Below, one piece after another: positions 5,536 through 62,313 of a stretch of 64,000 bases of DNA; position 1 is the stretch's first letter; the number at the start of each line of letters is the position of its first letter. Location: the NCBI GenBank assembly GCA_019115605.1, contig DXDG01000016.1, positions 1-64,000 of the forward strand, written 5' to 3'. Made by a program: the position numbers and the translations under genes. Below the pieces are notes generated by a model. The model made no database searches. It saw only the letters and a program-made list of their open reading frames with translations, and was not told the origin of the DNA. Source of the DNA: Candidatus Alistipes faecigallinarum. Its GTDB lineage: Bacteria > Bacteroidota > Bacteroidia > Bacteroidales > Rikenellaceae.

Positions 5536-6939
5536 TCAGTCTCCGACCGTGCGGTCGAGCCATGCGGCGAGTGTTTCGAGAACCGCCGGATCGATCGTCG
5601 TCCCGATGCGTTCGTATTCGGACACATCGCCCGTCGTGCAGGGCTGGAAAAGGTGATTCAACCCCTCGAAAGCCTTTACGGTAAGGGCCGGCGACTGTCC
5701 CAGCAGGCGGCGGATCGTGCCGAGATTCTCCGCGGCATCGACCTGACGGTCGAGCGTGCCGTTGAGGGCCAGCACGGGGCGCTCCCCGGCGGCGGCGATC
5801 GCTTCGGCCGGATCGAAGGTCAGAAAATGGTAGACCCAGGCGTTCGTTGCGGCGTTGTCGAGCAGCTGCAGGAGATTGTCGCGGAGGGCCGGCGGCAGCG
5901 AGGCCGCGGGCTCCCGGGCTGCAAGCCGCATTTTCAGTTCGGCGCTTTCGGCCGCAAGCTCCTCGCGCGTGTGGCTGCGGATCTCCGCGTAGAGCGCTTC
6001 GAGCAGCGTGCAGCAATCCTCCGTGAGGGCCTTGTCGAGTCCCTGGAGCTCCATCTGCCGCCGGTTCTGCTCGAGACTTGCCCGGTCGCCGCGCACGGCC
6101 AGCCCGGCCATCGAAACGATGAAATCCACGCGGGGTTCCCGGGCCGCCGCCGCGAAGGCGATCGTGCCGCCCTCGCTGTGGCCGAGGATTCCGACCGGAC
6201 AGGCCGTCGTGTCGCGCAGCGCCGCCAGACAGTCGAAGGCGCCCAGCGCGTCGAGTGTGAACTCCTCGGTCGTGGCGTTGTCAAGCAGGCGGTGCTGCTC
6301 CTGCTCCGGGGCTCCGAAGCCCCGGTCGTCGTAGCGCAGCACGGCATAGCCGCGGCGTGTCAGGTGGTCGGCGATCACCAGGAAGGGCTTGTGCCCGAAA
6401 ATCTCCTCGTCGCGGTTCTGGAGTCCGCTGCCGGTAACCAGTATCACCGCGGCACGGGGGCTGCCATCCGCAGGTAGGGTCAGCGTGCCGTGCAGCTCGA
6501 CCCCTTCGGCGCGGCTCGGAAACGACACCTCGCGACATATATAAGGGTAGGGCGGCTGCGGCTCCTGGCTCCGGACAACGGCCGGGCGGAGTTTCAGCAG
6601 CAGCGGAAAATCCTGCCCGTTCTGGTTGAAAACGCCCATGATCATCCCTCCGGGCATCATCGCTCCGCTGTAGCGGGCGTGCAGCGCCCCGAATGCGATC
6701 GCGAGGTCCGGGTTGTGGAACGCCACCGAGTCGGCCGGAAGGCCGCGCAGCCCCTGATCGGGGCTGTTAAGCGTGGCGGCATAACCTTCGGCGGCCTCCG
6801 CGATGCGTATCGTGAGCGGGAGGCGGCTTCCGGCAAAGGAGAGCGTGCCATCCCAGATGCCGGCGGGGCTTTGTGCCCGAAGTGCGGCGGGCAGCAGAAA
6901 AAGGGTGAGCAGCAGCAGGGTAGCGAGGCGCGGTTTCAT
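5536..6939 (-). CDS. alpha/beta hydrolase family protein (serine aminopeptidase S33-like)
   Basis: 467 aa, signal peptide, GILGHSEGGTIA nucleophile elbow, VTGSGLQNRDEEIFGHKPF. Confidence 0.85.
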   Translation of the reverse strand: MKPRLATLLLLTLFLLPAALRAQSPAGIWDGTLSFAGSRLPLTIRIAEAAEGYAATLNSPDQGLRGLPADSVAFHNPDLAIAFGALHARYSGAMMPGGMIMGVFNQNGQDFPLLLKLRPAVVRSQEPQPPYPYICREVSFPSRAEGVELHGTLTLPADGSPRAAVILVTGSGLQNRDEEIFGHKPFLVIADHLTRRGYAVLRYDDRGFGAPEQEQHRLLDNATTEEFTLDALGAFDCLAALRDTTACPVGILGHSEGGTIAFAAAAREPRVDFIVSMAGLAVRGDRASLEQNRRQMELQGLDKALTEDCCTLLEALYAEIRSHTREELAAESAELKMRLAAREPAASLPPALRDNLLQLLDNAATNAWVYHFLTFDPAEAIAAAGERPVLALNGTLDRQVDAAENLGTIRRLLGQSPALTVKAFEGLNHLFQPCTTGDVSEYERIGTTIDPAVLETLAAWLDRTVGD

Positions 6940-6970
6940 GGTCGTCGGTCTATGGATGTCGTAAAACGAA

Positions 6971-7000
6971 AAATGCAGCCCTTATGTGAGTGCTGCATTT
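6971..7000 (-). terminator. terminator-like hairpin downstream of tRNA-Gln
   Basis: AAATGCAGC-n12-GCTGCATTT inverted repeat with flanking A/T tracts. Confidence 0.6.
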
Positions 7001-7006
7001 TTCTTG

Positions 7007-7077
7007 TTGAGCTACCTGGATTCGAACCAAGAATAACAGGACCAGAATCTGTTGTGTTACCATTACACCATAGCTCA
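7007..7077 (-). tRNA. tRNA-Gln (CTG anticodon)
   Basis: TGAGCTA/TAGCTCA acceptor stem, anticodon loop TTCTGGT, GGTTCGAATCC T-arm on the minus strand. Confidence 0.9.
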
Positions 7078-44511: not shown

Positions 44512-45507
44512 CTAGGCCACATACTTTTTAATGTCAACAAACGGGGTCCCTCTCTTAGCGACGGCAAAGACTCGGGCCAGGAGCTTGTTACGGACAATAT
44601 TGATGACTGTCATCCTGCTTTTCCCTTCGTCCAGCCTGCGCTGATAATACGCTCTGATCTCCGTATCGGTATGTATCGCACAAATAGCCGCCAGATGCAA
44701 CAACTTTTTCATCTGTTGGTTGGCAATCTGGCTCACCTGAGTTCTGCCTCGGACACTGGTGCCGGACTGATATTCGAATGGAGCAGTCCCGGAGTAGCAG
44801 GCGAACTTGCGCCAGTTGTCGAAGCGTGTGAAATTACAGGTGTATACGATCAGGTGCGAGGCAACGATGAGCCCGATTCCCTTGATCGTCGTGATCAACT
44901 CAAACGTGGTCCATAACTCTTTGTTGCCGTGCAGGATCTCCCGGATCGATTTTTCCAGGAGCTTGATTTCATGTTTCAACGTGCAAATCATCGTGTCGTA
45001 ACATGAAAACATGTGCGGCAGCTCTTCAGCATGAAAAACGGAACGTATTTCATGCTTACTGACGATGTAGCCAGCCAGATTCCTCGCCATACGCTCCCTT
45101 AGATTCAGCATATGCTGGATATTGAGAATCTCTTTTGCCGGCAGAGTCGTCAGGCGGATCTTGTCCAGAAACCGGAAAGCAAACTCTGCGATCCGTCTGG
45201 AGTCAATCCGGTCGTTCTTGCCTCTGGTAATACCCATGGAACGCTTTATCTCCAATGCAGGTACCATCGCATATAAAACCCGTTTTTCTTCCAGAAACTG
45301 CGCCAGAGAGAGCGAATAAAGCCCGGTGTGCTCAAAACACAACAGAAGATCCGACAAGGCCAGACACGTTTGCCTCTGAACCCATTGTTCCAACTGTTGA
45401 AATCCCAACCGTTCATTCTTAAATTGCTTGTGAACTTTTACGTTCAGGATGAAGACGTCCAAGGTATGTTTTGAGACGTCAATACCTACGAAATCTTTAA
45501 ATTTCAT
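44512..45507 (-). CDS. IS110 family transposase (DEDD/Tnp20 type)
   Basis: 331 aa; FVGIDVSKHTLDVFIL, RGKNDRIDSRRIAEFA, TIKGIGLIVASHLI, CYSGTAPFEYQSGTSVRGR. Confidence 0.95.
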   Translation of the reverse strand: MKFKDFVGIDVSKHTLDVFILNVKVHKQFKNERLGFQQLEQWVQRQTCLALSDLLLCFEHTGLYSLSLAQFLEEKRVLYAMVPALEIKRSMGITRGKNDRIDSRRIAEFAFRFLDKIRLTTLPAKEILNIQHMLNLRERMARNLAGYIVSKHEIRSVFHAEELPHMFSCYDTMICTLKHEIKLLEKSIREILHGNKELWTTFELITTIKGIGLIVASHLIVYTCNFTRFDNWRKFACYSGTAPFEYQSGTSVRGRTQVSQIANQQMKKLLHLAAICAIHTDTEIRAYYQRRLDEGKSRMTVINIVRNKLLARVFAVAKRGTPFVDIKKYVA

Positions 45508-46711: not shown

Positions 46712-47457
46712 TGACTTACCCCGTACTCAGGCCTTCGCTGCCCCACACCGAAATAAGCAACACGGACAGCCCACGCGAAACGCGTATCATGCACATAGCA
46801 AGCCAAAGGCCTGCGGGCACAATACATGCGTCCACGAGGCGTCCCGTTACATCCCTTCCGGTGTGTCAAGTTTGCGAAGTTTGAGTACGGAAGAAAACGT
46901 AATTAAACGTTCGTAGTATGTTAGTCCCGCGGATCGGCACAGAACCATCTACAAAAATAGGAAATTAAATCGGAAAACCGCCAACGGCCGCTGATTTTTG
47001 CGGCAAAACTCCATCCGATAGCACAATGCTACAATAGGGAAAATCTAATATCTAAGGCTCCAACCTCCTCTCCTGTTAAGCATACAACGGATAACGAGGA
47101 TTCCCCCCATGTTTGTCAGTCTTCCGATTGTTGTCTGGGATCTTCGGGATTGGACGCCCGAACGCCGTAACAAATTTGAGCGAGAAGCTCAGAACACAAG
47201 CTACCTTTGCTTTTCAACGGTTTATGCAACTCCATCACAAAACCGATTCTCCCGTAAAAAGGCATGACCCGGCTGCAGATTGTTCGCAAACGAATATCGG
47301 GTCATATCTTATTGTATTCAATATCTTCTTTTATGCTCTACTCAAGCAAAGTTCAATAGCCAATCTGCCTGAATCCGGAGCACGCGCTCTTTATTTGAAA
47401 AAATGGCACACAATGGAAAAATTCCGACTATGTGCATGATTTAAGCACATGCTCTTA

Positions 47458-47465
47458 CTACCTTT
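47458..47465 (+). promoter_or_regulatory. TACCTTTG -7 box upstream of the WYL-HAD gene
   Basis: TAnnTTTG match about 20 nt upstream of the start codon. Confidence 0.5.
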
Positions 47466-47485
47466 GTATCAGAAAAACAAACACC

Positions 47486-48898
47486 ATGGCATCCAATCTC
47501 TTTAAAAGGTACATCTGGCTGGCCGACACGATCCATCGCTACGGGCCGATTACGCTGGCCGAGATCCGTGCCCGCTGGCAGCGCAGCGCGCTCTACGACG
47601 GCCGTCCGCTGGCACGGCGGACCTTCCATACCCACCGCGACGCGGTCGAGGAACTGTTCGATATCTCGATCGTCTGCGACGAACGCACCAACCGTTACTC
47701 TGTTGCCAACAGCGAGGATCTCAACTCGCACAACATCACAAACTGGTTGCTCGATAGTTTTGCCGTCGGGCAGTCGCTGCGCGAGGCCCGCACGCTGCAT
47801 AACCGCGTGCTGGTCGAGGAGGTTCCCTCGGCCCGGGGGCATCTTCCCGAACTGCTCGACGCCATGCGCGAGAACCGGCAGGTGGTCGTTACCTATCAGC
47901 CCTTCACGGGGGACGAGGCCTTCGACCTCCGTCTTCAGCCGCTTTTCGTCAAGCTCCGCGACCGGCGCTGGTACCTCTACGCCGACAAGCCCGACAATGC
48001 GAAGATCAAGCTCTATGCGCTGGACCGCATGGTGAAGATCCGCGTGACCGACGATCGCTTTACGCCGCCCGAGGAGCTGGATCCGGCCGGCTACCTGGCC
48101 GGGGCCTTCGGCGTGGCGGTCTATGACGATATCCGCCCCTGCACGATCCGGGTCCGGGTCGCGGGCGACGGCGTCAAGTATCTCCGCACGCTGCCCCTCC
48201 ACGCCTCGCAGCAGGAGGTCGAGACGCATGACGACTATGCCATTTTCGAATTTCACGTGGCACCGACGCCGGAGTTTTACCAGGCCATGTTAAACTGCCA
48301 CGGCAATTTCGAGGTGCTCTCGCCGGACAATGTACGGAAGGAGATACGGCGCATTATCGGGGACCTCGAAGCTCTCTACGATTACAACGTCCAGAAAGTG
48401 ATCTTTCTCGATTTCGACGGTGTGATGAATACCGAGCGTTACATTGCCGAACGGCGCAGGAACGGGCTTCCGGTTTCAGACCGTTACGGTTATCTGTTCG
48501 ACCCTGAGGCCGTGGACAACCTGCGGCGGATCATCGATGCAACCGGTGCCGCAGTGGTCATCTCCTCGTCATGGCGACTGGAGGGCGAAGAGCGAATGGA
48601 AGCCATGTGGCATGAGCGGACTCTGCCGGGGAAGTTGATTGGCGAGACCGGTCAATCGCAGTATGCCAACTTCGCGATGTCCGCCGGAGAGACGGCCGGA
48701 GCCGCCAAGGGAGAGGAGATTCGCAGTTGGCTGAAAGGGCACGCTCCGCAGCCATACAGCTATGTAATTCTTGACGATGAGGCGGATATTCGACCGGAAC
48801 AGCTGCCGCACTTCATTCAAACCGATCCCCGCATCGGCATTACCCGCGCGGATGCTGAACGAGCCATCTTGATTCTAAACGGCAATGACCATGACTGA
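47486..48898 (+). CDS. WYL-domain regulator fused to a HAD domain (Swiss-army-knife RNA-repair HAD type)
   Basis: 470 aa; N-terminal HTH/WYL (VVTYQPF, RRWYLYA, YALDRMVKI) then VIFLDFDGVMNTERY...VVISSSWRLEG...YVILDDEADI. Confidence 0.85.
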   Translation: MASNLFKRYIWLADTIHRYGPITLAEIRARWQRSALYDGRPLARRTFHTHRDAVEELFDISIVCDERTNRYSVANSEDLNSHNITNWLLDSFAVGQSLREARTLHNRVLVEEVPSARGHLPELLDAMRENRQVVVTYQPFTGDEAFDLRLQPLFVKLRDRRWYLYADKPDNAKIKLYALDRMVKIRVTDDRFTPPEELDPAGYLAGAFGVAVYDDIRPCTIRVRVAGDGVKYLRTLPLHASQQEVETHDDYAIFEFHVAPTPEFYQAMLNCHGNFEVLSPDNVRKEIRRIIGDLEALYDYNVQKVIFLDFDGVMNTERYIAERRRNGLPVSDRYGYLFDPEAVDNLRRIIDATGAAVVISSSWRLEGEERMEAMWHERTLPGKLIGETGQSQYANFAMSAGETAGAAKGEEIRSWLKGHAPQPYSYVILDDEADIRPEQLPHFIQTDPRIGITRADAERAILILNGNDHD

Positions 48899-49640
48899 CA
48901 AGAAAAAACAATACGCTCAAAAAACAACGACTTCATTTCGGACGTTCAGCCAGCGGGCCGATGCTCCGAAAACAGCAGAGACCATCATCCCGATTGACAT
49001 TGTCGACCGACAGGGTCGCAACTACACGCTGCGGAATGCCGAGGGCTTGCAACTCCGGATCAACGAATCACTGGTCGTAGACAACGGGCTGCATATGGAT
49101 GCGCAAGCAGGGAAACTGCTCGTCCCCGAATCACTCGTCCGGGGCTGGTTTGAACCGATCCACCGAGAGCAACAGAAGCGGGAAGAGCAACGGCTCCAGG
49201 ATCTCTTTGCCGCATCGGTGCCGCTCGTCTGGCACCACCGTGAACGGATTCTTGCCGACCCGCAAATCTTCGGAGCCCGCACGCCGATGCGCATCCGCAT
49301 GGCCTATGTTTCGATGCAGGATTCGGGACCCTATCCACTGGGCGTGGTGGTCCAGGCATGGACCGAATACGAGGAGTGCTATACGCGCGTATGCCCGAAA
49401 TGCGGCGGACAGATGCTGATTTATTCCTTCTCCGGATCGCCGTTAAGCGGCCGCAGCAGCCATTCGGCCACATGCACCGCATGCGGCTACCAACAACACC
49501 ACGTCGACGAAGGCAGTTTCGGCCGCCTTGCCTCACCGATCATGCGTATCGCCAGCCAGTATCGAGATCTGCCGAAGGATGATGCACTGTCGCTCGAAGA
49601 GGCCATGGCACTTCTAAACAAAAGAAAATCTCTAAGATAA
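48885..49640 (+). CDS. hypothetical Zn-ribbon protein
   Basis: 251 aa; CPKCGGQ...CTACG; start overlaps the end of the WYL-HAD gene. Confidence 0.7.
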   Translation: MTMTDKKKQYAQKTTTSFRTFSQRADAPKTAETIIPIDIVDRQGRNYTLRNAEGLQLRINESLVVDNGLHMDAQAGKLLVPESLVRGWFEPIHREQQKREEQRLQDLFAASVPLVWHHRERILADPQIFGARTPMRIRMAYVSMQDSGPYPLGVVVQAWTEYEECYTRVCPKCGGQMLIYSFSGSPLSGRSSHSATCTACGYQQHHVDEGSFGRLASPIMRIASQYRDLPKDDALSLEEAMALLNKRKSLR

Positions 49641-49665
49641 TTGTATCTTTATAAAAAAGATTCTT

Positions 49666-50733
49666 ATGAAAAGCAAAGTAGACGACCGTAAATCTCCCAT
49701 TCAGAAAGAGATAGAAGTTCAGATCCTAAATATTCTGAGGAATCGAATTACATGTAGCGGAATGAAGAATCGAATCATCTTCACTGATTATATCGATTTT
49801 TTAGTCGACAGCCAGACCAAAAAACTATCCATGGCTATTCATGAAAAAAAGTTTTATTACGAAGGGAAGACTGTAAAAACGAAATACGGTTATGAAATGA
49901 ACCCAGTCTGCCAAAACATGCAGACAGATTATGCCTCATTCGAGGCCTGGGCTCTCTGTCTCAAATATTGGCTTTCGGACCAGATTGAAACGGTCTGTCT
50001 AAGATGGGATGAGCCGCAGCACATCGATGTGGTCCGGCAACGTCACTACAACCGGTTCCTCTATCGGGTTCTCAAAATGCAGGAACACTTCGAATGGTTC
50101 AGCATTGAAGCAGAAAATACTCCGGCAGTACGGAACTTCCAGACTGAACTTGAAAGCGGCAACCTGTACCTCAATATTCCCCGCAACGAGGCATCAACAC
50201 CACAAAAGGAGTCATCTGAAGCAACCATCGAAAGAAGTTTCATCTCCCGAAAAGAGTTGTTCAAGGGTGTGGATTTCGACGCATGCGGCAATCAATTGCC
50301 GGTAGGGGTTTTCAGGGATTCGGTTTCCAACACAAATGCTCTGTTTACCGGAGGAAAAAGTGCCATTGACTTGTGGGCAATCCGTTCCGATGAATTGTGG
50401 ATCTTTGAATTGAAATACCGAAATAAAAAAATCGGCATTCTGACCGAATTGCTTTTTTATCTGTGGCTCATGGAGGATCTTTGTCTGAATCATACAATCC
50501 ATTACGGCCCGCACACTGACAAGACAACCATGCCCCGAAACTTCGACAAATTCTATGACAGGACAAACGGCGACATTGCGGCTATCCACGGAGTCCTGCT
50601 GATTGATGAATTGCATCCGGCCATTTCTCCGGATCTTCTTGCTTTTATCAATCGTGAAGACAGGAATAAACGGAGTACGATCCACGCCCAATATTACAAA
50701 TGCCAATCCGACAAAAAGATCATATTGCTATGA
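49666..50733 (+). CDS. putative PD-(D/E)XK nuclease-like protein
   Basis: 355 aa; KSAIDLWAIRSDELWIFELKYRNKKIGILTELLFYLWLM resembles D-(x)n-ExK. Confidence 0.55.
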   Translation: MKSKVDDRKSPIQKEIEVQILNILRNRITCSGMKNRIIFTDYIDFLVDSQTKKLSMAIHEKKFYYEGKTVKTKYGYEMNPVCQNMQTDYASFEAWALCLKYWLSDQIETVCLRWDEPQHIDVVRQRHYNRFLYRVLKMQEHFEWFSIEAENTPAVRNFQTELESGNLYLNIPRNEASTPQKESSEATIERSFISRKELFKGVDFDACGNQLPVGVFRDSVSNTNALFTGGKSAIDLWAIRSDELWIFELKYRNKKIGILTELLFYLWLMEDLCLNHTIHYGPHTDKTTMPRNFDKFYDRTNGDIAAIHGVLLIDELHPAISPDLLAFINREDRNKRSTIHAQYYKCQSDKKIILL

Positions 50734-52004
50734 CCATCACCATTCACCGCGGAACCCACGAAATCGGCGGCAGCTGTGTCGAGATACGTACCCGGCAGGC
50801 AAAAATCCTGCTCGATCTGGGTCTGCCGCTCGATTTCGACTCCCGACCCCAGGAGCAGCAGGAGCAAATCCGCCGCGAGGCCCTCGAATGGGCGCAGGAC
50901 GCCGATGCCATCTTCATCAGCCACTACCATGCCGACCACCACGGTCTGCTGCCCGATACGCACCGGGATGTGGCCATCTACGCTACGGCCGGGACGGCGG
51001 CCATGATGCACGTCACCGAGGTGATTCATGGACGCGGCGATGCCGACTATCTGCGCCATATCAGAATCCTCGCCAAGGAGGCTGACGACCGGAAGTTCGA
51101 GCCGGTAATCGTGGGCGATATTTGTATCACGCCCTACACGGTCGACCATGCGGCCTATGATGCCTGCGCCTTTCTGATCGAAGCCGAAGGCCGGCGAATC
51201 CTCTACAGCGGAGACATCCGCCGTCACGGGGTGAAAGGCTTTCTCTACCACAACCTGCCCCGGAAGGTCGACTGCCTGCTGCTCGAGGGGACCAATCTGA
51301 CCACCGAAAAGGAGTGTATGAGCGAAGCGGAGATTTGCGAACGTTTCAAGGAGCAGTTCCGCACCGATGCCGACAAGCTGCACTACATCTGGTGCTCGGG
51401 GCAGAACATCGACCGGATCGTCCAGATCTACAAGGCGGCGCTCGTCTGTTCGCGCAAGCTGATTGTGGATACCTACGTCGCCTATGTGCTGGAAGCGGTC
51501 CACCGTTTCAAGTCGTCGATCCCGTCGCCGCTCTCTCCGTTCGAGGGACACGATGTTTTCCGGTATTTCTGTTTGCCGGCCCAATTGAAACGGCTCGAAG
51601 AGGCCGGAGATCCGGAGATTGTGGAGCGTCTGAAGGCACTTTCGACGGTCGACACAAAAAACATCGGACGCAATCCGGGCAAATATGCCTGGCTCATCCG
51701 CCCTTCCATGCTGTACTACATGCAGAAGTACAGCCACACGCCATCGGTCGTAGTTACCTCGATTTGGGAGGGGTATGAAAAAGACGAGCCCGAATTCATG
51801 GATTGGATCCGGGAGCGGAGTTTTGCCAATCCACACATTCATACCAGCGGCCATGCCGATGCGAAATCGCTGCAGTCGATTGTCCGTCATGTCGATCCCG
51901 GGTTGTTGATTCCGATTCACACCACCGTTCCGGAACGCTTTGCCACGCTCTTTCCCGACCGAACGGTTCGCTGTCCGCAGGACAATGAACCAATCGAGTT
52001 GTAA
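50730..52004 (+). CDS. MBL-fold metallo-hydrolase, RNase J/CPSF-like
   Basis: 424 aa; RGTHEIGGSCVEI, ISHYHADHHGLL, YSGDIRRHG, HTSGHADAKSL; ATGA overlap with upstream CDS. Confidence 0.88.
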   Translation: MTITIHRGTHEIGGSCVEIRTRQAKILLDLGLPLDFDSRPQEQQEQIRREALEWAQDADAIFISHYHADHHGLLPDTHRDVAIYATAGTAAMMHVTEVIHGRGDADYLRHIRILAKEADDRKFEPVIVGDICITPYTVDHAAYDACAFLIEAEGRRILYSGDIRRHGVKGFLYHNLPRKVDCLLLEGTNLTTEKECMSEAEICERFKEQFRTDADKLHYIWCSGQNIDRIVQIYKAALVCSRKLIVDTYVAYVLEAVHRFKSSIPSPLSPFEGHDVFRYFCLPAQLKRLEEAGDPEIVERLKALSTVDTKNIGRNPGKYAWLIRPSMLYYMQKYSHTPSVVVTSIWEGYEKDEPEFMDWIRERSFANPHIHTSGHADAKSLQSIVRHVDPGLLIPIHTTVPERFATLFPDRTVRCPQDNEPIEL

Positions 52005-52083
52005 GTTCCCTTTTTCCCAGATTCTGCCCTGTTGTGCCGCCATTCCGCACAGCAGGGCTTTTACTTTGCCGAAAAGGCTGGAT

Positions 52084-52551
52084 ATGGGAATCAGATACTA
52101 CTACAAAAACGGCAAAACGGGATTTCAGACACCCGGCGGATGCCACCTTACGAAGGCTTGCTGGGACGAGGCCTGGCTGCTGGATGATACGGACCGGGCA
52201 TTGGTGCGCGACAGCGAGGGATATGCGTTGCTGCGCATCCGCAGCGGGCGACTCATTCGTTTGGATTGTGACCGTGCGGCACCCTATGGCGACACCCTGC
52301 TGCGCATCCGCCGCAACGGGAAATACGGACTGGTGGATTTCGAGGGCCGCGCCATCATTCCTCCGCGATACGATGTGCTGACCAACCACTTTGCTCAATT
52401 CAATATCATCGGCCGCCGAGGCCGCTACGGATTGCTCAACCGACAGGGCGGATGGGCACAACCGCTTCGTTACGACGTGATTCTACCCGTCAACCAGCGG
52501 GGCAACGACCGTTTGGCCTGCATCCGCCGACACAAGGTGGTATTTCTATGA
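52084..52551 (+). CDS. WG-repeat-containing protein
   Basis: 155 aa; RRNGKYGLVDFEGRAIIPPRYDVL and RRGRYGLLNRQGGWAQPLRYDVI. Confidence 0.8.
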   Translation: MGIRYYYKNGKTGFQTPGGCHLTKACWDEAWLLDDTDRALVRDSEGYALLRIRSGRLIRLDCDRAAPYGDTLLRIRRNGKYGLVDFEGRAIIPPRYDVLTNHFAQFNIIGRRGRYGLLNRQGGWAQPLRYDVILPVNQRGNDRLACIRRHKVVFL

Positions 52552-53289
52552 AATTTCACCACTTCACCCCATCCGAGTTTGACTGTGTGGTTACTGAATC
52601 TGGTCGTGAATATTCCGTACAGCCTTGCGGTCCAACGTCTGCCTCCCCCGCGGTCTGTAAAAGGATCCCGATATATCTTTCTCGGAAATCCATCCAATTT
52701 TGCGGTCGGGTTCTAGGAATCGATGTCCCTGAGAACTATCATGGTGTATGATGGAATGCGAAACAACATGGACTCAATGGTTGCCCGTTGTTACCTCTGT
52801 ACATCATGATTGATATCTTTTTTATTGCAAAACGATCGCCATGAAGACAATATGTACACTGACGATCCACGTCCGGTAAGCTGACCCGGCAGAACGTTTG
52901 GTACATGAACGCCCCTCCCAAGATTAGGGGCAGTATTTTCAACACATCAATTGTGCAATGCGTTTCCGGAGACTTATATCATGTGAGAGATTTACAGAAT
53001 CCTCGTTTCAAAAAAGTCAAGGGATAATCAAGAAGACAGTTAATATATCCTTGATCCTGCACGACTGTTAAGATTTTACCCATGACATTCTCCCCGTTTA
53101 AGACATAGTGGCACTTCTCATAAATCGCCTATTCGTAAAGTTTTTGTATTTGGCTGATGGTTTGTTCTCGGACTTTCGATTTAAACTCATGCAATTCCCG
53201 CGCGGATACGGATTGCAATTTGTTAGTTGTCACATTTCTCATCCGGCAGTTTCCCTCTGCTGACATGAGTTCCTATACGTATTTACGGG

Positions 53290-53809: not shown

Positions 53810-54964
53810 CTATTTGTCGGAATCATCGTTCATCCCGAACATGTCCAGGATTCGATCGATTCGAAGATCGATTTCTTCATTCGATAGAGATTCCAGATCT
53901 CGAGGTTTGCTTGACGCGGGCTTATTCTCCGACAACTCTGCCGGAAACTCATCATCCGGGATTTCGTCAATTATTATATTATCATCGATCGGATTTTGGG
54001 ACTTATCCCATTTGGTTGTCAAATCATTGATTACTGCCGGCCACACCGTAGTAGGCTCAAGGAATCTCCATATTGACTGGTCGAACCATGTGCCGCAACA
54101 GATGACCCATCTCTCTTTGGGTAGTTGGAAGATTGGTATATTCTGCAGTGTACTTTTTTTGCACTTTTGAATGATTCCGGGTAGAACCAGTCTTCCAAGC
54201 TGACGCATAAATTCCTCTTGTGCGACTGTAACTTCAAGAGGTAGCAAATCAATTCCAATCCACCGATCCGAGATTAAACAAAGGTGCCGATTTTTAGCGA
54301 ATCGGATGACCGTACAGTTGCGGGATAACGCCTGTGTCAGAAAAATTCGGAAGAAATCCGGGGAGATGCTGAATTCCTGATGACGATCTGCCATTATACG
54401 GATGTACTCCTGAAAATGAAGCATCTTGAGAGATATCCATTGTTCCGTACTTGATATTTCGTTGAGATCAGGGAGCTGTCGGCAAAGACGATCGAACTCT
54501 TCATCATTCAAGTAATAGAGATTGAGTTCACTCTTCAGTAATGCCATGCAATGTTCAAAGTCGGCATTCTGCAACATACTCTCCTTCTGCTGGCAATATT
54601 GGGGCGAAAAACGCAATATTGTTTGCATGATACACTGAATATCATTAACTGTTTGCTCAATCTCTTCGCCAGCCATGGATTGTCCAAGGCAGTTCCAGGT
54701 GCCATCGGAATTTTCACAGCATCTGTAAATCCAGAAGATAGTCCCGGATTCGTTTCTAATACTGAAATTGTCCGGAGTCTCGTCCCAAGCCAGCAACAAG
54801 GCTCCCATCGGGACGGCATCTATTCCCGGAAGGCTCCAGGGAAGCAGCACATAAGGATAAACGTCGTGTCCAAGTATGGTTCTGCGATTTACATAAAGGA
54901 ATGGGATGCTTTGTGCATAGCATTTCGCTGTTTCTGGCGATTGTGAGTTCATGGGAGTTTTCAT
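53810..54964 (-). CDS. hypothetical protein
   Basis: 384-aa uninterrupted ORF; no family recognised. Confidence 0.6.
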   Translation of the reverse strand: MKTPMNSQSPETAKCYAQSIPFLYVNRRTILGHDVYPYVLLPWSLPGIDAVPMGALLLAWDETPDNFSIRNESGTIFWIYRCCENSDGTWNCLGQSMAGEEIEQTVNDIQCIMQTILRFSPQYCQQKESMLQNADFEHCMALLKSELNLYYLNDEEFDRLCRQLPDLNEISSTEQWISLKMLHFQEYIRIMADRHQEFSISPDFFRIFLTQALSRNCTVIRFAKNRHLCLISDRWIGIDLLPLEVTVAQEEFMRQLGRLVLPGIIQKCKKSTLQNIPIFQLPKERWVICCGTWFDQSIWRFLEPTTVWPAVINDLTTKWDKSQNPIDDNIIIDEIPDDEFPAELSENKPASSKPRDLESLSNEEIDLRIDRILDMFGMNDDSDK

Positions 54965-54975
54965 TATCTATTTTA

Positions 54976-56375
54976 TTAGTTCATTTCAGTCGTGGCATGT
55001 TGCGTCCGTGCTTCGTCGAATTTCTGCTTCATGGTCGGGTTGCCGCGAGTGAGCCGGCTTATTGTCAGATTTGCGGTGTCTTGCTGGGCCAGACGCAGAT
55101 TGTTTTCCGACCCCAGCAGATTCTCCTTTACCTTTTGCAGTTTAGCGATTGTATCATCAATCTGCTTGACAGCTTCGTTGAATTTTCGGGATGCCAGGTC
55201 ATAATGCCGCCCGAACTTTTCGCGGAATTCAGTCAGCTTGTTCTCGAAATTGGTTACGTCCACCTCCCGGCTTTGTGCCTGAATCAACTGCTTTTTGTAT
55301 TCGAGGCTCTTCTTTGAAGTCTGCACCAACAGTGTGATCAGCGGAATAAAGAACTGCGGACGGATGACGTACATCTTCTCGTAACGGTGCGACACGTCGA
55401 CGATGCCTCCGTTGTAGAGCTCGTTGTCGGGTTCGAGCAGGGAGACCAGCACGGCGAACTCACATCTCTTCTTTCGTCTGTCCTCGTCCAACTTCTTGAG
55501 AAAATCCTCGTTTTTGTGTTTGGTAGCCGTAGTGTCCATTTCGTTCTTCATCTCGAACATGATGGAGACATACTCCACGCCGTCTTCCATGTCTCGGAAG
55601 ATGAAGTCACCCTTCGTTCCGTCGGTTACGTCGTTATCCTTTTCGAAGTAGGCATTCGGCAGAATGGGCCGCAGCATTTGGTTGAACAGTGTCGAGCAGT
55701 GTGTTTCAAGAGACTCGCCGATCATCTTGGTACTCATGCGCGTCTTGAAATCCCGGTAGTAGTCGATCTGCTCCTGCTTGGCTTCCAGTTCGAGTTTATG
55801 CTGCTCCTTGAGTTTGGCCGTCTCGGCTTCGGCCTTGAACCGCTCCATCTTCATGTCAGACTGGAGCTGACTGATGGGGTATGATCTCTCGCCTGAAGCT
55901 CCTGCTCTGCGCGTTTCTGCTCTTCCATGACGGCCATCTTGAGCCGTGTGTCGGCCTGATTGACGGTTGACTGGAGCGCCGTGATGGTCTTCTCCTTTTC
56001 GGCCAAAGCCAGATCGCGTTCGGCATCCTTTTGGGCTTCGATATTTTTCAGTTGTTCCTTCAGTCGGTCTACTTCCAGCTGTCTTTCGCCGTTAAGTTGT
56101 ACGGACAGAGTCTCCATCTGACTCTTAAGGCGTTCAATCTCATTCTCTTTGGCGATTAACTCCTTTTCCTTGCCATTCATTTGCTCGGCAAATTCCTTCC
56201 GTGTCCGGGCTTCTGTCAGTTCCTGTTCCGCCTTGCGTCGGGCCTCGAGTTCTTCCATACGCCGTCCGATTTCCGCGTCAAATTCGGCGTTCTTCACTTG
56301 GCTGACGATCGACGCATAATCTGCTTCGTCTACGGTAAACACGCTTCCGCAATGGGGACATTTCAGCTCTCTCAT
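54976..56375 (-). pseudogene. DUF2130 family protein, frameshifted
   Basis: Two ORFs (55851..56465 and 54976..55854) join by restoring one base near 55890: ...EQELQA-ERSYPISQLQSDMKMERFKAE... Confidence 0.8.
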
Positions 56376-56572
56376 ATTGTCTGTTTTTCTGATTTCGCAC
56401 TTGATATGTATCTCAAAATTAGGTCTTATTTGGTTTAGTTCCATATGCCTCGGACAAAATTTCATAAAAAAGTTCCGATTTTGGATTTTATTTGCAAAAG
56501 TTCGTTCTGTTCGCTAATTTTAAAGTCCAAATTTCATTTTATCCGGCAAATTCCATCCATTCAGGACATGAC

Positions 56573-59182
56573 ATGACAATTCTCTTTCATCCCTGTTACG
56601 ATACGCGCTGCAGGCTCGATTCGGTACGGTGCGGCCAGGTGCTGCTCGACACGCTGACGCTCGGCCCGCTCGGACTGCTTCAGGAGCTGGAGCTCCATCT
56701 GGGGCTGACGTCCGCCACCACCTCGAATCTGTTGCGCACGGTCGACTATGTGAAGCTGCTGCGCGACTACCTCCCGGCGCATCCCGATTCGCCTTTTGCC
56801 CCTTCGTTTGAGGCAGACGAGTTCAATGTGGCTGCCGAACTGTTGCGATGGCGCGACCTGCTGCGGCTGGCCGGCTGGAAGGCCTCGATGCGCGGCATCT
56901 CCCCGCGAATCGATCTGCTGGCCGATCTCGAAGCCAGTTTTGCACGCCCGGCGCTGGGCGACCGCTGGCAGGCGGTGCTGGCGGAGCTTCCGACGCACCG
57001 GCTGGCGGACTGGACGCTCGAACTGCTCGCTCCGAAACAGCTGCTGTTCCCGCTTTACGGACGCCTGATTGATCGGCTCGGAGCGTGCGGTGTCCGGATC
57101 CGTGAATCCGTGCAGCAGGCGACGCGTCCCGAACAGGTACGGCGAATCCGGGTGCGGGACTTCACGGAGGCCTTCCGGGGAATCCCGACCCTCGACCCGA
57201 AGCGGTGGACGCTGATCTGCAACCACGGCAAACTGCTCAACAACGTGCTGCGGCTCAACGGCTGCCCGACGACCGAATCGTCGATTCGTGAGAACGACTC
57301 GTCGGTCGTGCAACTCTTCGAGGCGGGTTTTTCGCTCTTCATCCACCCGTCGGAGGAGGAGCCCGAGGCGGTCGACATCTATCGGCTGCTGAATTACCTG
57401 CAGGCCCGTCCCAACCCGATCCCTGCGCGGATCAACCTGGCCCTGCAGCGGCTGCTGACCTCCGAGGCGGGAATCGATCCCGAGCGCTGGCGGGCGACCG
57501 TCGACGAAGCCCTGGTGGCCGACGACGAAGCGGACGAGGAGGCCCGCAACCGGATCCGCCGCCGGTTGGATACGTTGCTAACCCCCTTCTTCGAGGCCGT
57601 TTCGCCGCGGGCCATCCCGCTCGAGCGGCTCCAGGCGTATGCCCGTTCGCTGCGGGGATGGGCCCTGCAGCGCAGCCGTCTCGGCGACGAAGCTTCCGGC
57701 GCTCTGCCACAACTTGCGGAGATGTGCGACGTCATGCTGGCCCTGCTGGAAACGTGTCGCGGGGAGACGATCGACGGACAGCTGCTGCAGGGGTGGATCT
57801 CGTCGATCCGCATCGATGCGTCGATCCGCAACACGGAGGCGCAGATCGGCTCGTTCGACGTGGTGGAGCATCCCGCCGCGTTGGTCGATCCGGTCGACCG
57901 GGCCGTCTGGGTCGACTGCGTGGGGATGCCAGAGTTGCATTACGACTTTGAGTTCCTCGGCCCCGACGAGCGAAAAGGTCTCGAACGGCAGGGTGTCAGG
58001 GTCTGGAGCCGCACCGAGGAGATGAAGGCTGAACTGGAACTCATCCGTCGCGGAGTGGGGCAGGTGCGTCGGGAGTTGATCCTCATTACGCCCGAATCGG
58101 ACCGGGGTACGCGGATGGAGGAGCATCCGATCGTCGACGATCTCCGGGGCGAGGAACTGACGCCCTTCCCGGTGGAGATCGACACGGTGCCGGTTGAGCT
58201 TCCGCCCCTCTGCCGGAAGGTGCCGGAGTTCCGGATCGCGGCCGGGAAGATTGCACCGCGCGAGACGGAGAGTGCAACGAGCCTCGATCTGCTGATCCAG
58301 CGGCCGTTCGACTACGTCATGCAGTATGCGGCCCGGTTGCGGCCGGGTGGCGTGCGCGAACTCGACGAACTGAATCTCATCGAGGGGCGTGTGGCGCACC
58401 GCACGCTGGAGCTGATCGTGCGGCAGACGGCGGGTGACCGCAACGCCATGGCGGGAATCATCGCCCGCCGGGAGGATTTCGACCGCCATTTTCTGGAGGC
58501 GGTCCGGGAGTGCGGACTGGGGCTGCTACTGGCCCGCTACGCCATCGAGCGCAAGACGCTTCAGGTGCGGCTGCACAATGCCTTGTCGGCGCTGATGTGG
58601 ATTCTGTTCCAATACGATCTGCGGGTCGAGGGGGTGGAGCAGGAGGTCTCGGCACCGCTGTCGGATACAGGCAAACCCCTGCTCACGGCACGTGTCGACC
58701 TGCTGTTGCGCGACAGCGCCGGGAATCCAGTGATTCTCGACCTGAAGTGGTCGCGCAGCGAGAAGCGGTACGAAGCCCTGATCCGCGAGGGCCGCGACCT
58801 GCAGCTGCGGGTCTACGACCATGCGGTGAGCTGCAGCCTCGGGCGTCCGGTCGCGGCCACGGGATACTTCCTGCTGGGGCGCGGCCAGTTGCTCAGCGCC
58901 GATCTGCCCGCTCTGCAGAATTACGCCAAACACGTCGATGCCCCGCGGACGACTGCCGAGGCCATGGCTCGCATCCGTGCCGGCTATGAGCGCCGCTACG
59001 AGGAGTTCCGCGATGGCCTCATCGAGGAGGGCGAGGGGCTGCCGGTCGGGCAGCTTCCCTATGCCCGGGCGAACGATCCCGAACGGCTGTGGCCCCTCCT
59101 GACGGAGAAGAACGCGGGGAGCATCAAGCAGATCGACCCCTATGACAATGCCTATCGAATCTTCAAAGGTACGCTGAAATGA
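56573..59182 (+). CDS. AddB-like PD-(D/E)XK nuclease family protein
   Basis: About 869 aa; C-terminal LLTARVDLLLRDSAGNPVILDLKWSRSEKRYE nuclease core; overlaps the start of the UvrD-like gene. Confidence 0.8.
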   Translation: MTILFHPCYDTRCRLDSVRCGQVLLDTLTLGPLGLLQELELHLGLTSATTSNLLRTVDYVKLLRDYLPAHPDSPFAPSFEADEFNVAAELLRWRDLLRLAGWKASMRGISPRIDLLADLEASFARPALGDRWQAVLAELPTHRLADWTLELLAPKQLLFPLYGRLIDRLGACGVRIRESVQQATRPEQVRRIRVRDFTEAFRGIPTLDPKRWTLICNHGKLLNNVLRLNGCPTTESSIRENDSSVVQLFEAGFSLFIHPSEEEPEAVDIYRLLNYLQARPNPIPARINLALQRLLTSEAGIDPERWRATVDEALVADDEADEEARNRIRRRLDTLLTPFFEAVSPRAIPLERLQAYARSLRGWALQRSRLGDEASGALPQLAEMCDVMLALLETCRGETIDGQLLQGWISSIRIDASIRNTEAQIGSFDVVEHPAALVDPVDRAVWVDCVGMPELHYDFEFLGPDERKGLERQGVRVWSRTEEMKAELELIRRGVGQVRRELILITPESDRGTRMEEHPIVDDLRGEELTPFPVEIDTVPVELPPLCRKVPEFRIAAGKIAPRETESATSLDLLIQRPFDYVMQYAARLRPGGVRELDELNLIEGRVAHRTLELIVRQTAGDRNAMAGIIARREDFDRHFLEAVRECGLGLLLARYAIERKTLQVRLHNALSALMWILFQYDLRVEGVEQEVSAPLSDTGKPLLTARVDLLLRDSAGNPVILDLKWSRSEKRYEALIREGRDLQLRVYDHAVSCSLGRPVAATGYFLLGRGQLLSADLPALQNYAKHVDAPRTTAEAMARIRAGYERRYEEFRDGLIEEGEGLPVGQLPYARANDPERLWPLLTEKNAGSIKQIDPYDNAYRIFKGTLK

Positions 59183-62100
59183 GAAACATTCACTATATCA
59201 GTGCCGGGGCCGGCTCGGGCAAGACCCATACGCTGACCGAGATCCTGGCCGACCATATCGCCTCGGGAGCCTGCCGTCCGGACGAGGTGCTGCTGACGAC
59301 CTTTACGGAGGCTGCCGCCTCCGAGTTCCGGGAGAAGACCCGCCGCAAACTGCTCGAAAATGAACTTGTGGATGCGGCGTTTGAGATGGCCGGAGCACGG
59401 ATCGGAACGATCCACTCGGTGGCCAAATCGCTGATCGACCGCTACTGGTACCGGCTCGGTCTGGCCCCCTCCATGACGGTCCTCGACGACGAGGGGCGCG
59501 CCCGGCATATCAACGAATCGCTGGCCGCACTGGCTACGGATGACGATCTGAAGGCTTTCCGGAGACTGCAGCGCTGCTTCGGCTTTACCCGGCAGGAGGG
59601 CTTGTATCAGGTTCCGAATCCCGATTTCTGGAAACAGCATCTGGAGCGGATTCTCGCGTGGATGGACAATTACGAGGTGTCGCTCGAAGAGAGCCTCGAC
59701 TATTGTTGCCGGCAGTTCGACGCTCTCTTTGTCGTGCAGGATCTTTCGGGAGACGCTTCGCTCGAAGCGCAGCTGGAGCAGGTGCAGTCCTATCTTCGGT
59801 CGATCCGCGACTCCGACGATGCTTACCCAACCACGCGGAACAACATTGCGCCGCTTTTGTCCCTGCAGGTTGGGAAGGAGCCCTATGTGTTCGCGGTCAA
59901 GGCCCTGTCCGCCGTTGGTAACCTGCCCAAGAAGTTGCAGAACAAGCCTTTTGCACCCGGATATGTGCAGGTTTGCGAGACGCTGGAAAAGAGTCTGCGG
60001 CACGTTTCCCATGGCCTCCTGCTGAAGGATTACGTGGAGCGGATCTTCCGGCTGGCCGCGGCGTGGCGCAGCGACTACGCTGACTACAAGCGGCGCAACC
60101 GTCTGATCGACTTTAACGACATGGAGCGCTATTCGGTGCAGCTGCTCGACCTGGAGGAGGTGGTCCGCGACATTCGCGAATCGACCCGACTGGTGTTGGT
60201 TGACGAGTTTCAGGACTGCAGCCCGATCGAGATCCGTCTCTTCGACCGTTTGTCGGAGATCGTCGAAGAGTCGGTCTGGGTCGGCGATACGAAGCAGTCG
60301 ATCTACGGCTTCCGCGGGAGCAATGCCGAAATGGTCGAGGCCATCACGCAGCGGTTCCCCGAGGGTGAAACGCAAGCGAACGCCGCGGGATGTTTCCGCA
60401 CCAGTCTCCCGAAGAGTTATCGCTCGCGCGAAAAGCTGGTTCTGGCGGCCAATGCTGTCTTTACGCCGATTTTCGGCCCTGCGGCCGCTCTGGAACCCCA
60501 TCACGGGGAGGAGGGCGTTGAGACCCTTCCGCCGCTCGAACTCTGGCAGGTCGGGGGTGACTTCTTCGAGGGCGTGGCCGACGGAGTTGAGGCGCTGATC
60601 GGGCAGGGTGTGGCTCCGGGTGATATTGCGATCCTTGCCCGACGCAATGACCAGGTCGATGCGCTGGCCGGCTCGCTGCGCAACCGGGGAATCCCCGTGG
60701 CGACCCCCGAAACGGCTATCGGCGATTACCTCGAGGTGCAGCTGCTTGTGGCGCTGCTCAACTATGCGGTGCTGCACGACGACTTCTCGAAGGCGGCCAT
60801 CCTCGCCCTGCTGGCCGACTGCCCGGTCGACGGGCTGCTCGAACGGCGGCTGGACTATCTGGCCGATCCGGGCGATAGTCGCTGGCTGGAGGATGATGCA
60901 CTCTTCCGAAAGATCGACCGGGTGATCGATCGCAACCGGCAGCAGTCGATCTCCGGCTTTGTCGAGAGTCTGATCGTGGAGCTCGATTTCGAAAACCGGA
61001 TCAATCGCTGGAGCGGTCCCGAGGCGGCCCGGCGTCGTGCCCATCTGGATTCAGTCCTGGAATTGGCCGTAGTCTACGAGACGCAGGCCGTACAGACCGG
61101 TGGGGTATCATTGAGCGGTTTTGCCCGCTGCCTCGAACAGGGGCAGACGACTGAGCGGCCTTTCGAGAAGGATCCCCGGGCCGTCAGCGTGCTGAGCTAC
61201 CACAAATCCAAGGGGCTCGAATGGAAGCGCGTCATTCTGACCGGTCTGGAGCGGGATTATCGCAAAAGGCTCTTTGCGCAGGATCTGTTCGAGGTGCAGC
61301 TCCACCGCGCGGACGATTCGGACGGAGGGGATGCCCGTCGGCTCATTTCGCTCTTTCCGAACCTCTTCGGGGCGTCGAACGTTCCCTCGTGCCTCGAAGA
61401 TCAGCTGCGCGAACTGCTGCGCTACGAAGCTGTCGATCGTTGGGTATGTCGGGAAGAGGCCCGGCTGCTTTATGTCGGTTTCACCCGGGCCCGGGATCAG
61501 CTGATTGCCGTGCAGCCATTGAAAAGCGGAAGAAATGGAGCGACTACTCCTCGGTCGCTCGAGTGGTTGATTCAGGTGGGAGCCGCTACAACAGAGCGTA
61601 TCTGGCACGCTTGGGATGAGTCGATTCCGGTTCGACAGTTTGTCGGTGCGGCGGCTTCCCGCACAGCGAAGGAGCCTCTGATGGCCGAACGGTACCTCCG
61701 TCCGGAGCCATCGGTCCAAACGCCGGAGCTCCGGTATCTGCAGCCGAGCCAGCTTGCCACCGATCCGAATCGGATGCCCGAGGTCACGCTGGTTGCCGAC
61801 CGCGGAGCCCGGATTGACCTGCAGGCCGGAGCCGAGACCCCGATGGCCGAGATCGGTACGACGCTTCACAACATCCTGGCGCTTTGCAGCCCCGGATCGG
61901 AGAACGTGACGGAGCGAGCCCGGCAGATCCTGCACAGACATGGTATGGAGACGGTCGTTCCCCATCCGGAGCAGATCGGGGTCGTGGCCGACTGGCTGTT
62001 CGGGTGGCTTGCAAGGGAGTATGGACAGGCCTGCAGGGTGTGGCATGAACGTCCGATCCGCATGTGGCGTGACGGACAGGAGTTGAACGGTTCGATCGAT

Positions 62101-62313
62101 CTGGTCTGGGAGACGGACCACGGATGCGTGGTTGTTGATTTCAAGAGCTTTCCGGGAGGTCGGAACATGATTGTCGATCCGGAGGGTGAACATTTTGCCG
62201 GACGTTATGCGCCACAGTTGACTGCCTATCGCGAAGTATTGGAAGCAGCCGGAATACAGGTGTTGGACACACTTGTCTGCTACGCCGTGCAGGGATCTCT
62301 GGTGCGAGTGTAA
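59179..62313 (+). CDS. UvrD/AddA-like helicase with C-terminal PD-(D/E)XK domain
   Basis: 1044 aa; ISAGAGSGKTHTLTE, LVDEFQDCSPIEIRLFDRL, GDTKQSIYGFRGS, LSYHKSKGLEWKRVIL, YVGFTRARDQL, CVVVDFKSF. Confidence 0.93.
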   Translation: MRNIHYISAGAGSGKTHTLTEILADHIASGACRPDEVLLTTFTEAAASEFREKTRRKLLENELVDAAFEMAGARIGTIHSVAKSLIDRYWYRLGLAPSMTVLDDEGRARHINESLAALATDDDLKAFRRLQRCFGFTRQEGLYQVPNPDFWKQHLERILAWMDNYEVSLEESLDYCCRQFDALFVVQDLSGDASLEAQLEQVQSYLRSIRDSDDAYPTTRNNIAPLLSLQVGKEPYVFAVKALSAVGNLPKKLQNKPFAPGYVQVCETLEKSLRHVSHGLLLKDYVERIFRLAAAWRSDYADYKRRNRLIDFNDMERYSVQLLDLEEVVRDIRESTRLVLVDEFQDCSPIEIRLFDRLSEIVEESVWVGDTKQSIYGFRGSNAEMVEAITQRFPEGETQANAAGCFRTSLPKSYRSREKLVLAANAVFTPIFGPAAALEPHHGEEGVETLPPLELWQVGGDFFEGVADGVEALIGQGVAPGDIAILARRNDQVDALAGSLRNRGIPVATPETAIGDYLEVQLLVALLNYAVLHDDFSKAAILALLADCPVDGLLERRLDYLADPGDSRWLEDDALFRKIDRVIDRNRQQSISGFVESLIVELDFENRINRWSGPEAARRRAHLDSVLELAVVYETQAVQTGGVSLSGFARCLEQGQTTERPFEKDPRAVSVLSYHKSKGLEWKRVILTGLERDYRKRLFAQDLFEVQLHRADDSDGGDARRLISLFPNLFGASNVPSCLEDQLRELLRYEAVDRWVCREEARLLYVGFTRARDQLIAVQPLKSGRNGATTPRSLEWLIQVGAATTERIWHAWDESIPVRQFVGAAASRTAKEPLMAERYLRPEPSVQTPELRYLQPSQLATDPNRMPEVTLVADRGARIDLQAGAETPMAEIGTTLHNILALCSPGSENVTERARQILHRHGMETVVPHPEQIGVVADWLFGWLAREYGQACRVWHERPIRMWRDGQELNGSIDLVWETDHGCVVVDFKSFPGGRNMIVDPEGEHFAGRYAPQLTAYREVLEAAGIQVLDTLVCYAVQGSLVRV

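Follow-up and report, generated by a model that had tools for sequence, protein, structure and literature searches.

What might a compact set of five genes in an accessory region of the Candidatus Alistipes faecigallinarum genome be for, and which of its parts belong together? In this study we analysed a window of 64,000 nucleotides (contig DXDG01000016.1, positions 1 to 64,000), in which an initial annotation had placed five tightly packed genes on one strand and read them as a defence or stress system for RNA damage, repair or processing. All five open reading frames proved to be intact, on the forward strand and where they had been placed, including the 14-nt overlap of genes 1 and 2 and the ATGA overlap of genes 3 and 4. 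The features discussed below are the following:

47346..52555, forward strand: mobile unit, a homologous block with 90-95% DNA identity to the Alistipes loci L012 and L013, whose flanks differ
47430..47450, unstranded: predicted WYL operator, inverted repeat ATGTGC-N9-GCACAT, kept in relatives and rare in the genome
47459..47466, forward strand: Bacteroidota -7 promoter box TACCTTTG (TAnnTTTG, from sequence), kept in L012, L013 and L014
47486..48898, forward strand: gene 1, WYL-WCX transcription regulator with a fused HAD_SAK_2 domain (470 aa; Pfam)
About 48398-48898, forward strand: HAD part of gene 1, with DxD, SSSW and DD motifs intact
48885..49640, forward strand: gene 2, protein with a Zn-ribbon-like CPKCG...CTACG motif (251 aa)
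49610..50719, unstranded: exchangeable slot, empty in L012 and holding an unrelated nuclease gene in L013 and L014
49644..49651, forward strand: possible internal promoter box TATCTTTA, weak, one mismatch to TAnnTTTG
49666..50733, forward strand: gene 3, predicted PD-(D/E)XK nuclease (355 aa; E185, D235, E248-x-K250), from residue conservation and a model
50730..52004, forward strand: gene 4, beta-CASP metallo-beta-lactamase (MBL) nuclease (424 aa)
50919-50945 and 51846-51857: SHYHADHHG and SGHA motifs of gene 4, which also has H140, D162, E186 and H397
52084..52551, forward strand: gene 5, WG-repeat protein (155 aa; Pfam WG_beta_rep 5e-6)

Judged by comparison with its relatives, the five-gene operon is real and travels as one block. 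In blastn searches against L012 and L013 the homology begins at position 47346 and ends at 52555, and in L014 it spans 47400-52538, again with flanks other than those of the window. Border repeats of an integration event were looked for at the mobile block and none were found. The accessory, sporadic setting described initially was borne out, the operon being inherited together and the MBL protein having a match in 6 of the 61 genomes searched. Conservation of the neighbourhood elsewhere points to more than a chance arrangement.

Not all parts of the block are equally constant. The HAD part of gene 1 is present in L014 and missing in L012 and L013, from operons otherwise 90-95% identical, and the WYL-HAD fusion was rejected as the core. 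Gene 2 has homologues in L012, L014, L019 and L040, and its 5' end is deleted in L013; its Zn ribbon consists of the CPxCG...CxxCG motif only, with weak profile matches. Gene 5 has clear homologues in L012, L013 and L014 only. The HAD, Zn-ribbon and WG parts are lineage add-ons outside the core, and the Zn-ribbon and WG-repeat proteins, which had been counted as parts of the system, are local additions.

The core of the operon, as its conservation across genomes indicates, is the pair of a PD-(D/E)XK gene and a beta-CASP gene. Related loci could be read in 75 cases, ranging from Bacteroidota to Omnitrophota; in 62 of them the beta-CASP gene lies directly 3' of a PD-(D/E)XK gene, and the two genes overlap in most loci. 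Eight of the 75 have no visible PD-(D/E)XK partner. A slot-type gene without the MBL gene occurs in L118. Of the 65 genes directly upstream, 55 show a PD-(D/E)XK-like motif; of the 572 other neighbours, 43 do (p = 8.5e-42), and shuffled sequences give a background of 9%. Of 395 other Bacteroidota genomes sampled without bias, five had the MBL protein. Upstream DNA was readable in three of these, and each has a PD-(D/E)XK gene either immediately 5' of the MBL gene or separated from it by a single gene; one shows the order WYL-nuclease-x-MBL. The pair is repeated on plasmids of Alphaproteobacteria and a Firmicute: a Butyrivibrio plasmid has the order WYL-nuclease-MBL, and one copy in Cereibacter, from the plasmid survey, lies in a transposon-rich stretch. 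At least 470 MBL relatives from many phyla were found among 84,980 species genomes, and WYL homologues stand alongside the MBL gene in about a dozen loci. Independent occurrence of the homologues was to have counted against the initial proposal; the WYL and MBL genes do keep company in these loci, and the pair of PD-(D/E)XK and MBL genes does so across phyla. No description of the pair was found in the libraries searched or in the literature (open-licence papers).

Gene 4 is, by its motifs, an RNase-J-like beta-CASP nuclease with a complete catalytic set, and cleavage activity is predicted. It matches Pfam Lactamase_B_2 (2e-12) and RMMBL (8e-5) and, over residues 8-396, the RNase J profile (9e-30). 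HxHxDH, the motif-3 histidine, the motif-4 aspartate and motifs A (E/D), B (H) and C (H) are all present, and H65, H67, D69, H70, H140, D162, E186, H375 and H397 are invariant in 30 relatives. The RNase J/CPSF-type motifs noted earlier agree with the profile matches, the best of which are RNase J, CPSF and EF2904; a ComEC-like type was not seen.

Gene 3 had no family match in Pfam, NCBIfam, PHROG or PADLOC, and no homologues among plasmids, phages, viral contigs and the 395 other Bacteroidota genomes; its relatives in L086 and L090 lie in the equivalent place, ahead of the MBL gene. We predict a PD-(D/E)XK nuclease from residues kept with these relatives and from a medium-confidence AF2 model (pTM 0.78), in line with its earlier description as nuclease-like. 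The catalytic set E / D / (D/E)-x-K is present and invariant within its own family; among the 64 slot proteins, which are only about 13% identical, D235 and E248 are invariant and E185 and K250 are kept in at least 90%. Structure prediction, which had been proposed as a check, gave models of both slot proteins that fit the alpha-beta-beta-beta-alpha-beta order of the core; their top Foldseek matches in the PDB are PD-(D/E)XK nucleases, but none is significant (best E 0.16 and 0.06).

Gene 3 is also, from comparison of the loci, an exchangeable slot, which is the main feature of the operon and was missed in the initial annotation. Its GC content is 44% versus 56-60% for genes 1, 2, 4 and 5. Alistipes operons about 90% identical hold unrelated gene-3 cassettes, and in the clade of the window gene 3 was replaced while the MBL protein stayed 93% identical; in L012, where gene 3 is lacking, the MBL gene is broken by a stop. 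On the MBL tree there are 26 changes of partner type, and even close sisters differ in their partner. When slot family profiles were compared pairwise, clear links joined c1, c2 and c18, and a moderate one (85%) joined c8/c21; c13, the family to which the window's gene 3 belongs, had no link to other slot families at the sequence level. A recent transfer was considered for the slot proteins of L013 and L014, which are 95% identical, and rejected: four-fold sites are 57% identical, versus 65% in the neighbouring gene. Since this synonymous divergence resembles that of the neighbouring gene, the L013/L014 slot genes are ancestral and strongly conserved, and it is the window that switched.

The WYL protein (Pfam WYL 3e-13, WCX 4e-11, HAD_SAK_2 5e-30) looks like the operon's own regulator, as had been suggested. 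The inverted repeat is a single copy genome-wide, with 0.01 expected in the window, and stands at the equivalent position in L012, L013 and L014. At equal distance L019 and L040 carry CTATCTGC...GCAGATAG in place of the window's half-sites. Probably the WYL protein acts on the operon by way of this repeat, which adjoins the promoter and shows matched changes in relatives. The single good promoter described earlier is present, but this may be too simple a picture, since a promoter-like box of its own probably comes with gene 3; the consensus boxes ahead of the slot genes read TATTTTTG in L013 and TATCTTTG in L014.

From the anatomy read in the sequence we infer the function. The operon looks like an undescribed defence system directed at viruses or at other DNA or RNA that invades the cell, in a pattern that recurs across many phyla. 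We hold it slightly likelier to be true than false that this is a WYL-repressed, mobile, inducible immune module of two nucleases, the exchangeable one setting the target and the beta-CASP enzyme degrading it. The WYL protein would repress the operon until a ligand from infection or nucleic-acid damage binds; the PD-(D/E)XK enzyme would then recognise and cut some feature of the invading nucleic acid, and the generic beta-CASP enzyme would degrade the product starting at the 5' end created by the cut. In loci that have HAD or metallophosphoesterase partners, these may remove end phosphates; the frequent downstream metallophosphoesterase is the PADLOC candidate PDC-S10 (2e-66). No self-protection gene (methylase or immunity protein) was seen, and PADLOC matches close to the pair showed no clear excess over those at a distance of seven or more genes. 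Whether the pair represents an undescribed, mobile, cross-phylum immune class, with a fixed beta-CASP RNase and an interchangeable PD-(D/E)XK cassette under a WYL repressor, we consider an evenly balanced proposition.

Other readings deserve consideration. A toxin-antitoxin pair, with a PD-(D/E)XK toxin and a beta-CASP antidote that might destroy the toxin mRNA, or the reverse, would suit a small overlapping, sporadic and plasmid-borne pair with a fast-changing partner, and the MBL gene of L012, which lacks gene 3, survives only as a broken copy with a stop. An antidote would be expected to evolve along with its cognate toxin, yet partners are exchanged freely on the MBL tree and the slot was replaced beside a nearly unchanged MBL protein, whose fully conserved catalytic set is enzyme-like; we regard this reading as unlikely. 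It might also be that the unit, moving as a block, serves mobile elements, its nuclease attacking rival elements or aiding the carrier's persistence. Copies do occur on plasmids, in transposon-rich stretches and, in a few cases, on contigs called viral; most, however, lie on contigs that are bacterial and show no obvious element. From sequence this possibility can hardly be separated from defence, with which it overlaps; it appears rather improbable.

The stress operon of the initial annotation, in which WYL senses damaged RNA, HAD heals its ends and the MBL enzyme trims RNA, could draw on the intact HAD_SAK_2 motifs, on the RNase-J-like MBL protein and on L033, where a stand-alone HAD_SAK_2-type gene lies two genes 3' of the MBL gene. 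However, most loci and even nearly identical operons lack the HAD part, the pair in the window has no ligase, kinase or RtcB next to it, and swapping of the PD-(D/E)XK gene is unexpected for a repair enzyme. The defence role fits, but RNA repair depends solely on an optional part; as organising idea it is not supported, and we find the reading very improbable.

If the preferred reading of an immune module is right, a widespread system is absent from the PADLOC 2023 catalogue. Several known systems share single traits with it. Shedu is a single-gene system; its SduA has the PD-(D/E)XK core in common and is the fourth structural match of the commonest slot family, not significantly so (E 0.27), and neither gene 3 nor the slot proteins scanned matched Pfam (SduA, DUF4263) or PADLOC Shedu models. 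The operon genes include no cognate DNA methyltransferase as in restriction-modification; nor, if the WYL regulator is set aside, do they include a Cas-type protein as in CRISPR type VII. BrxR is a WYL repressor of a phage-defence island that binds inverted repeats (PMC9122601); like BrxR/CapW-type repressors of phage defence loci (PMC9122601, PMC9122588), the window has a WYL protein at the operon head and an inverted repeat by the promoter, but here the WYL protein carries a fused HAD domain, the cargo differs and repression is putative. The trypsin-MBL (nuclease-protease) module of Hachiman, AVAST, Lamassu and DRT systems (PMC12799240) resembles our pair in that an MBL-fold nuclease gene and a partner gene travel through different immune settings. 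Its MBL is ComEC-like, upstream and activated by a trypsin-like protease (PMC12799240), whereas the MBL of the window is beta-CASP/RNase-J-like and downstream, with a PD-(D/E)XK partner; Pfam found no protease domain in the five proteins.

RNase J, aCPSF and Cas14 beta-CASP nucleases have catalytic motifs in common with gene 4, and RNase J and Cas14 match it over nearly its full length. Gene 4 differs from them in being compact, accessory, accompanied by a nuclease and far under NCBIfam cut-offs (40 bits versus 800 for the Cas14 model). In most of the best-matching loci the MBL gene has beside it a nuclease whose type is different and unnamed. Slot exchange, if true, would play the role of specificity-subunit exchange in restriction systems and, if the function is immunity, the slot would offer a naturally assembled set of new nucleases with directly readable targets. 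The closest solved relative of gene 4 is EF2904 of Enterococcus faecalis (PDB 2az4; profile E 1.6e-39), a protein with MBL and beta-CASP domains that has been called hypothetical (PMC3095777). The pair gives this solved but unexplained structure a testable setting.

The initial annotation had proposed a five-gene same-strand operon at 47486-52551, and all five genes proved to be intact, on the + strand and where they had been placed. Pfam matches are WYL, WCX and HAD_SAK_2 in gene 1, MBL and RMMBL in gene 4 and a WG repeat in gene 5. Gene 2, annotated as a Zn-ribbon protein, carries only a Zn-ribbon-like cysteine motif; gene 3 has no family match in Pfam, NCBIfam, PHROGs or PADLOC. By DNA comparison, 47346 to 52555 shares 90-95% homology with the Alistipes relatives L012 and L013 while the flanks differ, and a third relative, L014, shows ~78% homology across 47400-52538, yet has other flanks again. 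The five genes thus travel as one unit. The operon is sporadic among the genomes searched (MBL match in 6 of 61, including the window's own). An IS110-type transposase-like gene (by reading; 44512-45507, - strand) lies ~2 kb upstream. Just downstream, on the opposite strand (53810-55854, - strand), a 384-aa familyless protein adjoins a DUF2130 gene (Pfam 1e-85), and two large genes resembling an AddB/AddA-type nuclease-helicase pair (by reading; 56492-62313, + strand) are probably core genome edging the accessory region.

Two stretches vary inside the block. One is the HAD part of gene 1, missing from L012 and L013; the other is gene 3:

49610-50719: exchangeable gene-3 slot, missing in L012, with an unrelated gene instead in L013 and L014

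The GC content of gene 3 is 44%, versus 56-60% for genes 1, 2, 4 and 5. Between the window and L013 the MBL proteins are 93% identical, whereas between the slot proteins there is no similarity beyond that of shuffled sequence. The slot proteins of L013 and L014 are 95% identical with synonymous sites as diverged as those of the MBL gene, which indicates strong purifying selection. Judged from these sequences, the slot protein is swapped whole and not by drift. The only close relative lacking gene 3 is L012, and there the MBL gene (L012:2148-3422) has an in-frame stop near its 3' end, just past the HTSGHAD motif, which would fit an enzyme that is not maintained in the absence of a slot-nuclease partner. 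The window's WYL part (47486-48379) is nearest L013 (97% four-fold identity) but its MBL gene (50730-52004) is nearest L012 (85% versus 78%), so that the Alistipes operons are recombination mosaics.

The pair of nuclease and MBL gene is not confined to Alistipes. Scanning an MBL alignment over 84,980 species genomes gave 470 relatives, of which the best 80 were read together with viral and plasmid copies. By our own count, upstream DNA was readable at 75 loci, and in 62 of them a PD-(D/E)XK-like gene stands immediately before the MBL gene, overlap being the commonest arrangement; the other 13 comprise one split copy, four with a nuclease nearby (L015, L085, L092, L096) and eight with none visible. 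The motif, present in 9% of shuffled sequences, occurs in 55/65 directly upstream genes versus 43/572 other neighbours (p = 8.5e-42). Plasmids of Alphaproteobacteria and Firmicutes show the same pattern, a Butyrivibrio plasmid having the order WYL-nuclease-MBL. In an independent sample of 395 other Bacteroidota genomes, picked regardless of this system, five carry the MBL gene; in all three with readable upstream DNA a PD-(D/E)XK gene adjoins it or precedes it by one gene, one locus being arranged as WYL, nuclease, small protein, MBL. One locus, L118, has a slot-type gene without MBL.

Among 64 slot proteins with ~13% identity to the window's, D and E are invariant and E and K are at least 90% conserved. 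Profile comparison joined families c1, c2 and c18 and moderately linked c8 and c21; it gave no sequence-level link for the remaining families, the window's c13 included. Models of the window's protein (pLDDT 69, pTM 0.78) and of c1 (pLDDT 84, pTM 0.87) both show the expected element order. Foldseek matches were not significant, the top ones being PD-(D/E)XK nucleases in both cases (HincII, McrC and arenavirus endonucleases for the window; EndoMS/NucS and SduA for c1). The MBL protein has all beta-CASP motifs, and its profile matches EF2904 (1.6e-39), RNase J across residues 8-396 (9e-30) and Cas14 (3.5e-15). EF2904 is listed as hypothetical in the literature, where it is said to contain an MBL and a beta-CASP domain (PMC3095777).

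Since the nuclease is swapped as a whole cassette against a fixed partner, the slot protein probably meets a changing opponent, either a target or an inhibitor, and the MBL protein would perform a generic task. The simplest such job would be that a first cut by the slot nuclease creates 5' ends from which the RNase-J-like MBL protein degrades; both the defence role and these cut-then-degrade steps are inferred. The main rival is a toxin-antitoxin pair. A tree built from 76 MBL proteins, with nine partner families, shows 26 changes of partner family (shuffled mean 32.6, minimum 8), or 19 once related families are merged. An antidote would be expected to track its toxin, but the MBL tree shows no such tracking, and this rival is weakened.

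A predicted operator of the putative defence module lies beside its promoter:

47430-47450: inverted repeat ATGTGC-N9-GCACAT, 8 bp upstream of the TAnnTTTG box

The repeat is single-copy genome-wide (0.01 expected by chance in the window) and its position is kept in L012, L013 and L014. At this position L019 and L040 carry CTATCTGC...GCAGATAG, so both arms have changed in concert; in the more distant WYL loci L022, L036, L039 and L047 the repeat is partial or absent. BrxR, a WYL protein from a phage-defence island, is a repressor binding inverted repeats (PMC9122601), and by analogy it is natural to predict that the WYL protein represses the operon. A second promoter-like box, a weak candidate, may lie ahead of the slot gene.

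Some loci carry additional genes. A metallophosphoesterase, possibly a third component, lies directly 3' of the MBL gene in L021, L025, L028, L029, L030, L032 and L034 (slot family c6), in L016, L018, L027 and L059 (c14) and in L102 (Cereibacter). In L033 a stand-alone HAD_SAK_2 homologue (6523-7044) follows the MBL gene and a metallophosphoesterase fragment, so a link with HAD has formed independently of the fusion to WYL. A SIR2-like protein (L117:2431-3633; TTNYDRLIE and KIHG by reading) is encoded upstream of the pair in L117, possibly forming a defence island.

Neither the MBL protein nor gene 3 has a model in PADLOC (2023), whose candidate lists are touched only by the optional metallophosphoesterase (PDC-S10, 2e-66) and by some slot proteins that weakly match PDC-S11/S18. 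The pair is not described in the openly licensed literature searched; papers beyond that scope could describe it. When membership in known systems was tested, the nuclease-MBL module lacked a defining feature of trypsin-MBL modules, of Shedu, of restriction-modification and of type VII CRISPR alike. What looks new, against PADLOC (2023) and that literature, is the module as such; its function is predicted and forms no part of this claim.
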